DNA of 64,000 nt from Aeromicrobium choanae (GTDB taxonomy: Bacteria; Actinomycetota; Actinomycetes; Propionibacteriales; Nocardioidaceae). Shown here piece after piece: positions 4,936-25,848 of this stretch; within the stretch, counting starts at the first letter, position 1; every line of letters begins with the position of its first letter. Both the position numbers and the translations under genes were made by a program. Under the pieces are notes generated by a model. It searched no databases and was not told the DNA's origin. It was given only the letters and a program-made list of their open reading frames with translations. The DNA lies in the NCBI RefSeq assembly GCF_900167475.1, contig NZ_LT796768.1, forward strand, positions 434,001 to 498,000, given 5' to 3'.

Positions 4936-6178
4936 CGAGCGGGTCGCGGATGATCGGGCACGTCATGCAGTGCCCGCCTCCGCGGCCGCGTCCGAGCTCG
5001 GCTCCGACGATCTCGATCACCTCGATGCCGGCCTTGCGCAGCAGCGAGTTCGTGTGGGTGTTGCGGTCGTAGGCGATGACGACGCCCGGCTCCAGCGCGA
5101 CGAGGTTGTTGCCGCTGTCCCACTGCTGGCGCTCGGTGTCGTACTCGCTGCCGCCGGTCTCGACGATCTGGAACTTCTCCACCCCGAGGGCCTGCGCGAC
5201 GACGTCGACGAACAGCGCGTCCTCGTGGTCGATGACCTCGATGCCGGGCAGTCCGTCGCCGGGCAGGATCGTGAACGCGTGGATCGTGTTGACGATCTCG
5301 GGGTAGATCGTGACGACGTCACGGTCGGCGAACGTGAAGACCGTGTCGAGGTGCATGGCCGCGCGCAGCTTGGGCATGCCCGCGACGATGACCTTCTCGG
5401 CCGCGCCCTGGTCGAACAGCGCCTTCGCCAGCTGGGTGATGCCCTGGCGCGACGACCGCTCGCTCATCCCGACCAGCACGACGCCGTTGCCCGGCACCAG
5501 GACGTCGCCGCCCTCGACCGTGGCGGTCCCCCAGTTCTCCTCGGGGTCGCCCCACCAGACCTTCGACCCGGCGAAGTCGGGGTGGAACTCGTAGATCGCC
5601 TTCATCAGGAGCGTCTCGTCCTTGCGGGCGGCCCAGTACAGCGGGTTCAGCGTCACGCCGCCGTGCACCCAGCACGTGGTGTCGCGCGTGTAGAGCGTGT
5701 TCGGCAGCGGAGGCATAAGGTACTCGTGGCCGCCGTGCGCCTCGCGGACGAGGGCGCGGTAGCCCGGCGCGAGCTCGCGCGGGAGGTCGCGGGTGGAGAG
5801 GCCGCCGATGAGGAACTTCGTCAGCTCGTCGGCCGGCAGCTCGTCGAGGTAGCCACGGGTCTCCTCCACGAGGCCGATCCCCACCTCGTTCGCCACGATC
5901 TTGCGGTCGAGCAGCCACTCTCGGGCGGTGCGGTCGGCCATCGTCGCGGAGAGCACGTCGTGCAGCTCGACCACGTCGATCTCGCGCTCGCGCATCTTGT
6001 CGACGAAGTCCTGGTGGTCGCGCTGGGCGTTCTGCACCCACAGGACGTCGTCGAACAGCAGGTCGTCGCAGTTCGACGGCGTGAGCCGCTCGTGGGCCAG
6101 TCCGGGCGAGCAGACGAGCACCTTGCGGAGGCGGCCGACCTCGGAGTGGACGCCGTAGGCGTCGGAGGGCTGCGTCAT
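4928..6178 (-). CDS. arcA: Arginine deiminase
   Basis: Hydrolyses L-arginine to citrulline and ammonia. 416 residues from ATG 6178, chosen because AAGGAG lies 4 bases upstream and [15 protein letters not shown] fits the family start. Guanidine-modifying superfamily residues are visible: [24 protein letters not shown] (catalytic His and Asp) and the C-terminal [10 protein letters not shown], whose CMTC contains the catalytic Cys. It lies 22 bases after the antiporter gene. No arcB or arcC is adjacent, so this is not a complete fermentative ADI operon in this window. Confidence 0.96.
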
Positions 6179-22600: not shown

Positions 22601-23492
22601 CCATGGTCCAGCAGGTCATCCAGTCGCCCGCCTCGGCGATCCACCCGGCGACGGTGCGCAGGTCGTCGGCGGCGATGCCGGTCGTGGCGGCGACGGCGTC
22701 GGGCGCGTAGTCGGCCATCATCGCCTCGACGTCGTCCCAGCCGCGCGTGTGGTGGTCGACGAACTCGCGGTCGACGGCCCCCGCCTCCAGCAGCAGGTGC
22801 AGCAGCCCGTTCAGGAAGGCCAGGTCGGTGCCGGGCCGGATCTGGCAGAAGAGGTCGGCCTTCTCGGCGGTCGCGGTGCGGCGGGGATCGACGACGACGA
22901 GGCGCGCACCGGCCTTGACTCGCTCCATCATCCGCAGGAACAGGATCGGGTGGGCGTCGGCCATGTTCGAGCCGATCACCAGGAACAGGTCGGCGTGGTC
23001 GAAGTCGTCGTAGGAGCCGGGCGGGCCGTCGGCGCCCAGCGACTGCTTGTAGCCGGTGCCCGCGCTGGCCATGCACAGCCGCGAGTTCGACTCGATGTTG
23101 ACGGTGCGCAGGTAGCCCTTGGCCAGCTTGGTGGCGAGGTACTGCGCCTCCAGTGACATCTGGCCCGAGACGTAGAGCGCCACCGCATCGGGTCCGTGCT
23201 CGTCGATCACCGTGCGGAACCGGGTGGCCGCCTCGTCGAGCGCCGCCTCGATCCCGACCTCGACCCGCTCGGCTCCCCGGTCGGACCGCACCGATGCCTT
23301 CTCCATGCGTCCCGGTGCGGCGAGCAGGTCGGCGGTGGTGGCGCCCTTCGTGCAGAGCCGTCCGGCGTTGGCGGGGTGACCGGCCGTGCCCACGGCGCCG
23401 GTGACCCGCACCGTGTCGTGCCGCCGCTCGACCTGCAGCGTCAGTCCGCACCCGACGCCGCAGTAGCCGCAGACGGTGTCGACCATCGTCAC
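19611..23492 (-). CDS. Assimilatory nitrate reductase fused to sulfite-reductase-type flavoprotein
   Basis: 1293 residues. Residues 1-700: molybdopterin oxidoreductase with an N-terminal [4Fe-4S] site (CGYCGVGCGL and GRLCTKG) and molybdopterin guanine dinucleotide-binding blocks. Residues about 760-890: flavodoxin-like FMN domain (ILTASQTGRVEDHA, VTSTTGDGDPP). Residues about 920-1293: FAD/NADPH reductase module (RQYSISSSPL, GPGTGVAPFRGFL, YVCGDRVHMAKDV). So NADPH electrons can pass FAD to FMN to the Fe-S/Mo site within one chain. Start GTG 23492 overlaps the cbiX stop as GTGA; ATG 23486 is an alternative. Last gene of the nir/nas chain; reduces nitrate to nitrite for NirBD. Confidence 0.92.
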   Translation of the reverse strand: MTMVDTVCGYCGVGCGLTLQVERRHDTVRVTGAVGTAGHPANAGRLCTKGATTADLLAAPGRMEKASVRSDRGAERVEVGIEAALDEAATRFRTVIDEHGPDAVALYVSGQMSLEAQYLATKLAKGYLRTVNIESNSRLCMASAGTGYKQSLGADGPPGSYDDFDHADLFLVIGSNMADAHPILFLRMMERVKAGARLVVVDPRRTATAEKADLFCQIRPGTDLAFLNGLLHLLLEAGAVDREFVDHHTRGWDDVEAMMADYAPDAVAATTGIAADDLRTVAGWIAEAGDWMTCWTMGLNQSTHGTWNTNAICNLHLATGAICRTGSGPFSLTGQPNAMGGREMGYMGPGLPGQRSVVSAADRSFCEDVWGLSPGAIRDEVGRGTIDLFEQLAAGEVKAAWIICTNPVHSVANRSTVLEGLAAADLVVVQDSYAENETLTHADIALPAALWTEAEGVMVNSERNLTLCRPVGPPPGDARPDWRLIADIATRLGFGEAFAFDSAEEVFEEIRAFANPATGYDLRGATYERLREGSLQWPCPPGGERRNPVRYVDDAGISFPMPDGRAVFHARPHLPPAELPDDDFPVVLNTGRLPHQWHTMTKTGKVPRLNRLNPDPFVEVHPDDAAALGIGEGSPVRIVSRRGEAVLPAVVTDRVLPGTCFAPMHWGEMTGEGLAVNAVTNDAVDPDSLQPEFKACAVRLERAPIRLPVAPPVGTEPSELETAWLAGYLAAMTHQAPTLPPSAPVAPEVRAWFAEVLAAVAPDPQDASADVTILTASQTGRVEDHAPELVRLLTGRGLTAVHRSLAGVRPEDLTGTVLFVTSTTGDGDPPTEAAAFWRLLAADAPRLVGLRYSVLAFGDSTYADFCGFGRRLDERLADLGAERLAARADCEPAFDAPASAWLDSVGRALGAVDAITVTEPDTPAYGRNRPLVTRLTRNELLTATDSSKEVRRFGFHLPEGTLEYEPGDALAVAPRVDPAYVDAWLTLTGLDGDALLESDGEPVRLADALAERYDPVTITPAVVRLVIDRHRGAVSGLPDPDDRLAVQEWAWGRQIVDLLHDHPTLARLDQWLTVLGPLTPRQYSISSSPLEDPSEVQVTVSVVRHRVHGLRRHGICSSHLADRAGEQDVSIHVQRQRHFRPPSDPGAAAIMIGPGTGVAPFRGFLKHRALAGEPGPNWLFFGDRNATTDFLYRDELESLRRDGVLTRLDTAFSRDQDRRVYVQDRMREQGLDLWRWLDEGAHLYVCGDRVHMAKDVEATLLHLAERHGGLSRDGARDWLAGLAEEGRYAKDVY

Positions 23493-24205
23493 ACCGCGGT
23501 CGCGAGGTCGTGGGCGCAGGCGGCGGCGTACCGCTCCAGCACGAGGGACACCAGTCGCTCGTCGGGCCGGCGCTCGTCGAGCAGGGGGGCGGTGACGACG
23601 TCGGCCCCGGCCCGGCCGAGAGCGTCGTGGAAGTGACCGGGCGCGAGCAGGTGGCTGGCGACCAGCACCCGTCGGCCCGGGCGCCTCACGGCGGCCACGA
23701 CCTCGCCCAGCGGCGTGCCGCAGTGGCCCACGTGGCCGAGCTCGACGCGACGGCCGAGCCGGACCGAGAGATCGGCGGCCGTCGCGCGGAGGTCGGCCAG
23801 CGCGCGCGGGTCACTGGACGCGGAGGCACCCAGCACCACCGTGTCGTCGGGTCGCAGGCCCTCGTCGTGCAGGCGCGACACCAGCGTCCGCGTGATGGCG
23901 GGGTGCGGTCCCAGCGGGTCGGCCGCGACGTGACCGGGCCGCCTCGTGACGACGCCCGCGATGTCGTGGTGCACGTGGTAGCCGGCCGACAGCAGCAGCG
24001 GGACGACCACGGCGGGTCGGTCGGCCACCGAGGCGGCGACCTCGGGCAGGGCCGGCTCCTGGACGTCGACCCAGGTGTCGCGGACCTCCACGGAGGGCAG
24101 CGCCCGGCGCACGGCCTCGACGAGGGCGGCCACCGCGGCGGCGCCCCGGGCCGAGCGGGTGCCGTGGCTGCAGGCGATCAGGACGGGCCGTGACGCGATC
24201 CTCAT
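23489..24205 (-). CDS. Sirohydrochlorin chelatase (CbiX-type)
   Basis: 238 residues. The N-terminus VLIACSHGTRSARG carries the CbiX/SirB metal-binding His, and VVVPLLLSAGYHVHHDIAG the second His cluster. Inserts Fe2+ into sirohydrochlorin to make sirohaem, the NirB cofactor; cobalt cannot be excluded. ATG 24205 overlaps the stop of the second micro-ORF by four bases, with GGAGG 7 bases upstream inside that micro-ORF. Its own stop overlaps the nitrate reductase start. Confidence 0.93.
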   Translation of the reverse strand: MRIASRPVLIACSHGTRSARGAAAVAALVEAVRRALPSVEVRDTWVDVQEPALPEVAASVADRPAVVVPLLLSAGYHVHHDIAGVVTRRPGHVAADPLGPHPAITRTLVSRLHDEGLRPDDTVVLGASASSDPRALADLRATAADLSVRLGRRVELGHVGHCGTPLGEVVAAVRRPGRRVLVASHLLAPGHFHDALGRAGADVVTAPLLDERRPDERLVSLVLERYAAACAHDLATAV

Positions 24206-24360
24206 GACGCCACCTCCGTGAAAAGCGCAGAGTACGTCGGCGCCGTCATGACTTGTCTGATGCTCACTCGCTGACGCTCGCTCATGACGCCACCTCCGTG
24301 GAAAGGGCAGAGTATGTCGGCGCCGTCATGATTTCTCTGATGCTCACTCGCTGACGCTCG
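24201..24360. repeat. Tandem 80-base duplication
   Basis: Two adjacent copies, 24201-24280 and 24281-24360, identical at 75 of 80 positions (differences at unit positions 21, 26, 35, 52 and 55). The period of 80 equals one 84-base micro-ORF minus its 4-base overlap, so the duplication copies exactly one cistron and keeps every overlap in frame. Confidence 0.97.
24202..24285 (-). CDS. Micro-ORF 2, 27-residue peptide in nitrate operon
   Basis: 27 residues starting MSERQRVSIRQVMTAP and ending ALFTEVAS. The ATG overlaps the stop of micro-ORF 1 (ATGA) and its TGA overlaps the cbiX ATG. GGAGG 7 bases before its start lies in the last codons of micro-ORF 1. It differs from micro-ORF 1 by E11Q, I12V and S22F, with two silent changes. 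Hydrophilic and without membrane span, Cys or His. Not a family I recognise. Translation is inferred from the overlap and ribosome-site geometry. Confidence 0.6.
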   Translation of the reverse strand: MSERQRVSIRQVMTAPTYSALFTEVAS

Positions 24361-24365
24361 CTCAT
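24282..24365 (-). CDS. Micro-ORF 1, 27-residue peptide in nitrate operon
   Basis: 27 residues starting MSERQRVSIREIMTAP and ending ALSTEVAS. Its ATG overlaps the TGA of the HemD-like gene (ATGA), with GGAGG 7 bases upstream in the HemD-like coding end. The last codons GAG GTG provide the same GGAGG-N7 site for micro-ORF 2. The first eight codons (GAGCGTCAGCGAGTGAGC) look like a GC-rich quasi-palindromic motif seen near gene starts in high-GC actinobacteria, so part of it may derive from a non-coding repeat. Confidence 0.6.
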   Translation of the reverse strand: MSERQRVSIREIMTAPTYSALSTEVAS

Positions 24366-25489
24366 GCGATGTCCTCCCGGTGGAGTGGTTCGAGGCGGTA
24401 GCCGCGCTTGACGACGGTCTTGACGAGGCTGCGGTCGCCGAGGGCCTCCCGGAGGCGCCCGACGGCGACGTCGGCGGCATGGTGGTCGTCGGTGGCGCGA
24501 GGCAGCACCGACAGCACCTGGTCGCGGGTGAAGACGGCGCCGGGGTCGGACGCCAGCAGCCGCAGGACGGCCAGTCCGGCGGGCGGGAGCGGCAGCACCG
24601 CGTGGTCGAGGGTGGCCGCCGTGGCGTGCAGGCGCAGCCGGCCGGTGGCGACGTCGACGCCGAGGTCGTCGCCGCCGAAGTGCAGGACGATCGACCTCAC
24701 GAGGGCACCGAGGCGGCCGCGGTCGGGCACGAGCGGCTCGAAGCCCGCGACGACGAGGGGCTCGGCGGTGACCGGCCCGACGGCGGCGAGCACGAGTCGT
24801 CCCTCCCGCGCCAGCTCCAGCAGGGTGGCCCGCTCGCCGAGGTCGCGCACGACGGACAGCCAGGCGCTCGCACCGGGGGCGGACGTGAAGACGATCGCGT
24901 CGAAGCCACCGGACGCGGCGTCGCGCACCGACCGTTCGACGGCCTCGGGATCCGGCGGCGGGCCCCACCGGTAGACCACGAGGGGCACCGTGGACGCGCC
25001 GGCCGCCGTGACCGCGGACTCCAGCCCGTCGTCGCCGGCACCGTGGTGCTGCACCGCGATCCGCATCCCCTCGACGCCCTCGGCCACGAGGTACTCGGCC
25101 ATCTCACGCGACGTCTCGGACTCGGCGACCCAGTCCGCCACGAGCCCCGAGGCCTGGATGGCGCCTCGGGCCTTGGGCCCTCGCGCGACGATCCGCGCCG
25201 CCGCCAGGACCTCGAGCAGCGGCTCGAGCAGGTCGACGGACTCGGCCGTCTCCAGCCAGCTGCGGAAGCCGATGCCGGTCGTGACCACCACGACGTCCGG
25301 GCGGTCGGCGATGAGCTCCTGCGTGCGCCGCACGAGCGTGTCCTCGTCGATGTGTGCCTCGACCCCGAGCGTCGCGGCGATGTGCACCTGCGCGCCGCGG
25401 CGCACCAGCGCGCTCGCCAGGTCGGTGGCGCGGCGCTGCGCCGTGACGAGGATGCGGGTTCCGGCGAGCACCGGCCCGTGAGGGGTCAC
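24362..25489 (-). CDS. Uroporphyrinogen-III synthase with C-terminal winged-helix domain
   Basis: 375 residues from GTG 25489 (VTPHGPVLAGTRILVTA), overlapping the nirD stop as GTGA. Residues about 10-260 form the HemD fold (two Rossmann-like lobes; VVVVTTGIGFRSWLE, DAIVFTSAPGASAWL). Residues about 285-370 match the OmpR/PhoB-type winged helix (GAVFTRDQVLSVL, VAVGRLREALGDRSLVKTVVKRGYRL). The same architecture occurs next to nirBD and cbiX in mycobacteria. It may make uroporphyrinogen III for sirohaem, regulate the nitrate genes, or both. No phospho-receiver domain is present. Confidence 0.9.
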   Translation of the reverse strand: MTPHGPVLAGTRILVTAQRRATDLASALVRRGAQVHIAATLGVEAHIDEDTLVRRTQELIADRPDVVVVTTGIGFRSWLETAESVDLLEPLLEVLAAARIVARGPKARGAIQASGLVADWVAESETSREMAEYLVAEGVEGMRIAVQHHGAGDDGLESAVTAAGASTVPLVVYRWGPPPDPEAVERSVRDAASGGFDAIVFTSAPGASAWLSVVRDLGERATLLELAREGRLVLAAVGPVTAEPLVVAGFEPLVPDRGRLGALVRSIVLHFGGDDLGVDVATGRLRLHATAATLDHAVLPLPPAGLAVLRLLASDPGAVFTRDQVLSVLPRATDDHHAADVAVGRLREALGDRSLVKTVVKRGYRLEPLHREDIA

Positions 25490-25848
25490 GCGTCCCCCCG
25501 CCGCAACCACACGACGTCGTCGACGACCCGCACGTCCCAGTGCCCCAGCGAGACCTCGGGGTCGTCGAGGCAGACGCCGGTGCGCAGGTCGAACACCTGC
25601 TTGTGCAGGGGTGAGGCGACCGTGGGCACGTCGCCCCGCGACCCGACGAGACCGCGGGCGATGACGTTCGAGCCCGTGAACGGGTCGCGGTGGCCCACCG
25701 CGAGGATCTCGCCGTCGCCGACTCGGAAGAGCGCCACCTGCTCGCCGTTCACCAGCGCCGCGGCGCCCCGGTCGACCCAGAGCCGGTCGATCGTGCACAC
25801 GGCGGTCCACGCCGACTCGGAGACCGTCTCCGACAAGGCCGCGCTCAC
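25486..25848 (-). CDS. nirD: Nitrite reductase small subunit
   Basis: 120 residues from GTG 25848, overlapping the nirB stop as GTGA. Rieske-like fold of the NirD family (VNGEQVALFRVGDGEILAVG, PLHKQVFDLRTGVCLDD) without the Cys/His ligands of true Rieske proteins, as is normal for NirD. Partner of NirB in NADH-dependent reduction of nitrite to ammonium in the cytoplasm. Confidence 0.94.
   Translation of the reverse strand: MSAALSETVSESAWTAVCTIDRLWVDRGAAALVNGEQVALFRVGDGEILAVGHRDPFTGSNVIARGLVGSRGDVPTVASPLHKQVFDLRTGVCLDDPEVSLGHWDVRVVDDVVWLRRGDA

Follow-up and report, generated by a model that had tools for sequence, protein, structure and literature searches.

Two tandem copies of a probable MIRU-like dispersed element at the stop/start overlap between a HemD-like gene and cbiX in Aeromicrobium choanae

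The window, that is the whole stretch of 64,000 nucleotides of Aeromicrobium choanae analysed here, carries on its minus strand an operon in the order nirB, nirD, a HemD-like gene, micro-ORF 1, micro-ORF 2, cbiX and a molybdopterin-flavodoxin-reductase fusion gene. The gene names proposed in an earlier, sequence-only reading were supported by Pfam domains, with NIR_SIR and Pyr_redox_2 in nirB, Rieske_2 in nirD, CbiX in cbiX (23489..24205) and Molybdopterin, Flavodoxin_1 and NAD_binding_1 in the fusion gene downstream of it. The HemD-like uroporphyrinogen-III synthase, sited between nirD and cbiX (24362..25489), combines a HEM4 domain with a C-terminal winged-helix Trans_reg_C domain. Six 4-base overlaps had been said to chain nirB to the fusion gene and all were confirmed, three of them GTGA, at nirB/nirD (25845-25848), nirD/HemD-like (25486-25489) and cbiX/fusion (23489-23492), and three ATGA, at HemD-like/micro-ORF 1 (24362-24365), micro-ORF 1/micro-ORF 2 (24282-24285) and micro-ORF 2/cbiX (24202-24205), every one on the minus strand.

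Micro-ORF 1 (24282..24365, minus strand), which adjoins the HemD-like gene, and micro-ORF 2 (24202..24285, minus strand), which adjoins cbiX, are each 27 codons long with ATGA overlaps at both ends; the translations of 24202-24285 and 24282-24365 read MSERQRVSIREIMTAPTYSALSTEVAS and MSERQRVSIRQVMTAPTYSALFTEVAS, each up to the stop. As had been described, they are 80-nt tandem copies, identical at 75 of 80 positions, and their five differences amount to three replacement and two silent changes. The placement of GGAGG 7 nt ahead of the ATG at all three ATGA junctions was likewise borne out. The GGAGG ahead of micro-ORF 1 (24373..24377) belongs to the original HemD-like/cbiX junction and is also present in a relative, G013, in which this site is empty, while those ahead of micro-ORF 2 (24293..24297) and of cbiX (24213..24217) are borne by the element. 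Each copy begins with a near-invariant 22-nt 5' box, at 24344..24365 in copy 1 (ATGAGCGAGCGTCAGCGAGTGA) and 24264..24285 in copy 2, and this 22-mer has two matches in the window with up to 3 mismatches, against 0.03 expected. An exact ATGAGCGAGCG at window 5457-5467 was rejected as a further copy; it lies within a longer reading frame and is followed by no ATGA-bounded micro-ORF. A conserved hairpin occupies 24284..24329 in copy 1, enclosing the GGAGG and the AU of copy 2's AUG, and 24204..24249 in copy 2, enclosing the GGAGG and the AU of the cbiX AUG, which stands at the hairpin foot. The hairpin loops hold TACTCT, a TANNNT motif and possible internal -10 box, at 24309..24314 and at 24229..24234, the latter 23 nt before the cbiX ATG. 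All of these features lie on the minus strand.

The sequence-only reading had itself cautioned that the pair might originate from a repeat, and the unit does recur across the genome as a dispersed element. A blastn search of the 3.42 Mb genome with this stretch found 16 places at E<1e-3, the window included, and a profile built by sequence only from 17 copies of the same genome detected 25 matches (E<=5e-4), of which 21 span the whole element or almost all of it. Matches (E<=1e-3) were present in 43 of 49 genomes of the genus Aeromicrobium, A. choanae included, at 0-73 copies per genome. A strict pattern run against a collection with one genome per species returned 78 stretches, those named to genus coming from Aeromicrobium, Nocardioides and Micromonospora; among the genus-named records of that collection no mycobacterium matched it. 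The 5' box was found in 14 of 393 sampled genomes of the class and 3 of 122 genera, with none for its reversed control among the matches listed. A class-wide profile search, whose sensitivity was reduced by the small number of candidates scored in each genome, matched 6 of 246 genomes, all of the same genus. Tandem copies occur in A. choanae in the window and at L032. Another copy of this genome, L036, is one of two identical tandem copies, and by their coordinates four copies lie adjacent at one junction in G026:C164:48563-48886 and three in G006:C1:839618-839861. No description of this element was found in the open-access literature searched.

The position of the copies between genes is highly regular. 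Of the 25 micro-ORFs in A. choanae, 24 terminate within the start of the following gene or copy, through an ATGA overlap in all cases but one (GTGA), and the 25th continues in frame into a glutaredoxin-like protein. At this locus (L051, G000:C1:1098737-1098787, minus strand) the 5' part of the element forms the N-terminus of the protein (VSERQRASMRIAHAEDARVVVYSREG...), possibly one way for the repeat to add coding sequence. Three shortened copies of the same genome, L053, L050 and L052 (30, 63 and 63 nt), are in frame with ATGA or GTGA overlaps at both ends. Another copy, L035 (G000:C1:1445131-1445214, plus strand), lies directly after TAGGTT at the apparent first gene of an operon and precedes a response regulator gene that opens with codons matching the 5' end of the element; it is perhaps the start of a leaderless mRNA.

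Outside A. choanae, 132 of 134 copies had enough downstream DNA for analysis, and their terminal ATG opens an ORF of at least 60 codons in 115, of 27-28 codons in 15 and of 24 codons in 2. The genes on either side of the element, as identified by Pfam, include PALP (read as TrpB-like) and Trp_syntA, an amino-acid kinase with ACT domains (read as LysC-like) and a semialdehyde dehydrogenase, PGK and TIM, Aminotran_3 (read as ArgD-like) and OTCace, Oxidored_q2 and Proton_antipo_M (read as MrpC/D-like), and RecG and Cons_hypoth95 (read as RsmD-like). All 10 upstream frames tested, from a list of 18, carried a Pfam domain, as did 8 of 9 downstream frames, with none for the 66-aa frame at L043. Pfam was preferred here to open-frame length, which is a weak test for an upstream gene in GC-rich DNA: the ATGA phase was open over at least 100 upstream codons in 100 of 127 copies and over fewer in the other 27, and the same length was reached in phase 0 by 69 copies and in phase +2 by 19. 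Since the operon neighbours are so varied, the element is unrelated to nitrate as such.

Sites occupied in one genome are precisely empty in others. In G013, the nearest relative examined, with a CbiX 93% identical, the HemD-like gene overlaps cbiX directly at ATGA, with the junction GGGAGGACATCGCATGAGG and no insert; in the window an identical flank is separated from ATGAGG by 160 nt. The HemD-like/cbiX site of G045 is also empty. The best CbiX loci were fetched for 30 of the 49 genomes, some of them without an adjacent HemD-like gene, and none of the 29 other loci has a 5' box (<3 mismatches in 17) within 350 nt upstream. The sequence-only reading had made the small-protein case depend on relatives having a conserved peptide at this junction, and none was found at these loci. 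For 16 further sites of A. choanae the element was deleted in silico and the joined flanks were searched in G013, G045 and G008, with up to 15 extra bases tolerated in a site called contiguous. G013 had 13 contiguous and 3 filled sites, G045 had 8 of each, and G008 had 13 contiguous, 2 filled and 1 not found. ATGA stood at all 28 of the empty junctions printed, from 34 empty. The reverse test, made with 5 of the 11 copies of G013, found four sites contiguous in A. choanae within 9 bases and about 29 extra bases at the fifth. Two sites, L039 and L041, are filled in A. choanae, G045 and G008 and empty in G013, which has the highest flank identity to A. choanae. Because same-site copies are mostly mutual best matches (9 of 13 cases), precise loss in G013 is the simplest account; exchange with empty relatives is possible instead. 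The evidence is a pattern of presence and absence rather than observed movement, and could include strain-to-strain recombination.

The reading frame of the element is kept strictly. The pattern allowed 80-93 nt, and all 86 copies that it selected measured 81 (2 copies), 84 (62) or 87 nt (22) and were open to the terminal TGA. A further 48 copies of the genus came from the profile; in 47 the frame closes where the model ends, and the last, also in frame, ends on GTGA one base past it. The sets of 86, 48 and 134 copies come partly from the same species and are hence not independent. One of the 47, L208 (G006:C1:637046-637153, plus strand), contains a 24-nt insertion, is 108 nt in total and remains in frame. 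Of 81 unique copies none has an internal stop in frame, whereas 41 and 13 do when read in the other two frames. No frameshifts in relatives, which the earlier reading had said would count against coding, were encountered.

The encoded peptide is another matter. Over codons 9-27, pN/pS was 0.97 in Micromonospora, 1.17 and 1.19 in Aeromicrobium, 1.42 and 1.57 in Nocardioides, and 1.37 and 1.12 within A. choanae; codons 1-8, whose values in the pattern-selected sets are shaped by the pattern, were left out. In 13 same-site pairs pN/pS was 1.24, while 0.12 was obtained for the downstream genes over their first 25 codons (12 of the 13 pairs, one dropped) and 0.57 for the upstream genes over their last 20 (13 pairs). 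No purifying selection on the micro-ORF peptide was therefore seen by pN/pS, in same-site pairs or in the copy sets. Our best reading of these comparisons is that selection keeps the frame, and with it a presumed translation, and not the peptide product. The 5' 22 nt are conserved beyond the needs of the encoded peptide. Substitutions per site between same-site copies were 0.042 in the 5' box, 0.126 and 0.103 in the stem, 0.183 in the loop and 0.335 in the spacer, and the ATGA showed 0 changes in 52. The low rates in the 5' box and stem at shared sites indicate that constraint acts on copies in place.

RNAalifold, applied to 17 copies of A. choanae (set A1), predicted a stem in which the central part of the ORF pairs with its final bases, the 3' arm consisting of GGAGG, the spacer and the AU of the next AUG. 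In A1, 98.4% of the cells were paired and 17 cells carried double changes, versus 5.5 in shuffles, and none of 500 shuffles reached any of the five measures. In A2 (51 copies from Aeromicrobium and Nocardioides, plus some without a genus label), 92.5% of the cells were paired with 64 double-change cells versus 18.5 in shuffles; four measures were reached by 0 of 500 shuffles and the number of double-change pairs by 3 of 500. The 30 Micromonospora copies (A3) have a similar stem with a shorter loop and 96.9% of cells paired, the 3' arm being fixed by the pattern. A joint three-genus alignment (A4) misaligned the Micromonospora hairpin and was excluded from all counts. One-sided stem changes on the mRNA strand of A1-A3 comprised 126 G.U versus 6 A.C, or 61 versus 6 once the mostly-G.U pair of each set was dropped, an excess that could partly reflect constraint on the Shine-Dalgarno sequence (SD). 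Folded in isolation, the window hairpins of copy 2 and copy 1 reached -23.6 and -20.1 kcal/mol (z -3.22 and -2.75); among 8 hairpins folded, one (L011, z -0.59) was no better than shuffles. In a 135-nt context the cbiX start is partly paired, with a probability of being unpaired of 0.44 for the SD and 0.53 for the AUG, and the empty site of G013 gave 0.51 and 0.67. The corresponding values at the element-free GTG junctions were 0.14 and 0.04 for the HemD-like gene and 0.44 and 0.02 for the fusion. These junctions are equally or more paired, and accessibility alone thus does not single out the cbiX junction. In same-site pairs, 12 of 17 changed stem cells stay paired and 5 are unpaired in one copy, with 1 double change among the 17.

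The loop contains TANNNT in 14 of 17 A1 and 50 of 51 A2 copies, where shuffling leads one to expect 0.17 and 0.19, and the motif ends 23, 24 or 26 nt ahead of the terminal ATG; it occurs in 0 of the 30 Micromonospora copies of A3. In A1 its A and final T are kept in 17 of 17 copies, with variation in the two columns preceding that T, and among the 13 same-site pairs the A changed in none and the T in one. The final T is a third codon position, and its retention is therefore not peptide conservation. TANNNT is the usual actinobacterial -10 core, and to judge by sequence the loop motif of the Aeromicrobium and Nocardioides types is possibly an internal -10 box. If so, transcription would begin immediately upstream of the 3' arm, and the resulting mRNA, lacking the 5' arm, would have a free ribosome-binding site (RBS).

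Taken together, the locus probably holds two tandem copies of a MIRU-like, non-autonomous dispersed element inserted at a stop/start overlap, with a frame that would couple the adjacent genes. The strict frame and the hairpin over the next start lend support to the earlier suggestion that the micro-ORFs are translated cistrons or translational couplers. On this reading a unit of 80 or 83 nt inserts in the sense direction at an ATGA where a stop overlaps a start, and insertion duplicates the ATGA, the upstream gene retaining its stop and the downstream gene its start; a unit length of 2 modulo 3 between the two ATGA copies leaves both flanking signals intact. The element contributes a micro-ORF in frame, a GGAGG of its own and a hairpin folding over this GGAGG and the next AUG. 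Left untranslated, this hairpin, which covers the new RBS, would repress the downstream gene. Ribosomes finishing the HemD-like gene would restart on micro-ORF 1, melt each hairpin as they translate, stop at the UGA overlapping the next AUG and restart again, lastly on cbiX. The peptide would be a by-product, and the act of translation would be what selection keeps. For the types found in Aeromicrobium and Nocardioides, a -10 box in the loop may add a promoter as well.

The sequence-only reading had also allowed that the micro-ORFs encode a peptide regulator or enzyme partner, that is, a functional small protein of the nitrate operon duplicated in place. Open frames, a good SD and exact overlaps are what such a gene would show, but none of the 29 other CbiX loci fetched, that of the nearest relative included, has the element upstream, it recurs in unrelated operons, its pN/pS is about 1 or above and its peptides have no Pfam match, and we regard this explanation as highly improbable. 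Scarcely better placed, and in our view very unlikely, is an RNA processing, stability or attenuation site in which the ORF is incidental. A strong hairpin within operons would suit it; however, 23400-25600 had no Rfam match at E up to 1, no terminator-like site was found in 24100-24500, and the strict frame would have no role.

Two further explanations are compatible with the preferred reading of a coupling element, and as accounts in their own right both seem doubtful. According to one, the element is a mobile promoter whose loop TANNNT serves as the -10 box of a short downstream mRNA, the frame being kept only to spare the read-through mRNA. The frequency of the motif in A1 and A2 and the retention of its A and last T speak for this, as does the ability to drive regX3 by itself that the available text of PMC4213456 reports for the MIRU region. 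Yet the motif is missing from the Micromonospora copies, a sigma-70 scan found no promoter-like site and no -35/-10 pair at the window copies, and a promoter alone accounts for neither the strict frame nor the hairpin. The other, to which we would give a similarly low weight, is a selfish repeat whose hairpin and 5' box serve mobility through recognition of single-stranded DNA, with translation merely tolerated and gene-start sites seen because other insertions were purged. Dispersal, precise ATGA junctions, turnover of presence and absence in both directions and a 5' end more conserved than the peptide requires all fit it, but the constraint on 5' box and stem relative to the spacer persists at shared sites, which the mobility of fixed copies need not preserve. 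Moreover, in A. choanae a reverse transcriptase (PF00078) was not found and a Y1 transposase (PF01797) had no match at E<=1, the control search for the latter matching in 10 of 14 genomes.

Among known systems, REP/REPIN sequences are small, dispersed, hairpin-bearing, non-autonomous repeats with RAYT (Y1) transposases. The element here shares the first four properties, but its genome is without a Y1 transposase match and it sits at start codons with a kept frame. The mycobacterial interspersed repetitive units (MIRU) were reportedly described by Supply et al. in 1997. As portrayed in the accessible portions of two sources, MIRU are mobile, insert at start codons and carry an ORF coupled at -4 nt (PMC12548453), and units of 77 and 53 bp lie at senX3-regX3 (PMC4213456). 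On these descriptions the likeness is broad. Ours is also a short repeat at many loci (25 matches in one genome), apparently mobile and found in tandem; its internal sense ORF overlaps the downstream start by 4 nt, the overlap here being read from sequence; it stands at start codons where relatives have the same sites empty; and 77 and 53 bp, like 80 and 83, are 2 modulo 3. To the promoter activity reported for the MIRU region corresponds here the candidate TANNNT of the loop. In contrast, our element occurs in Aeromicrobium, Nocardioides and Micromonospora with none matched in mycobacteria, and the covarying hairpin, the loop TANNNT and the lack of peptide constraint found here are not stated for MIRU in those portions. 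Our best reading is that the element works like a MIRU and is not to be classed as one, belonging to other genera and being likened by description, not by sequence. Enterobacterial RU-1/2/3 are, in the portion of PMC2759123 available, small mobile intergenic sequences with reading frames; they too are small mobile sequences containing a frame, but they are MITE-like, and insertion at a stop/start overlap is not stated for them there. Translational coupling by termination-reinitiation at ATGA overlaps, as outlined in part of a review (PMC12548453), is the same working as we propose, with the coupling ORF and a structured RBS here arriving on one mobile cassette.

We tentatively consider that the element might be a mobile two-way expression switch, with the hairpin coupling genes on the operon mRNA and the loop -10 box uncoupling the downstream gene. 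On the operon mRNA the hairpin would hide the next RBS and open only to ribosomes translating the micro-ORF, while a short second mRNA starting from the loop -10 box, without the 5' arm, would have a free RBS. Core operons would then acquire such switches in some species and lose them precisely in others. For the search for small proteins the element carries a warning, since a chain of overlapping micro-ORFs in a GC-rich genome can consist of repeats and not of small proteins, and it shows that selection for being translated is separable from selection for the peptide, two things that micro-ORF searches usually confound. As far as the consulted portions of the MIRU sources go, a way of life described as mycobacterial would extend to three other actinobacterial genera. 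Junctions with and without the element form natural pairs, at TrpB/TrpA, LysC/Asd, PGK/TIM and ArgD/ArgF-type neighbours and at HemD-like/CbiX, and these allow direct tests of coupling, hairpin gating, the internal promoter and possible precise loss.
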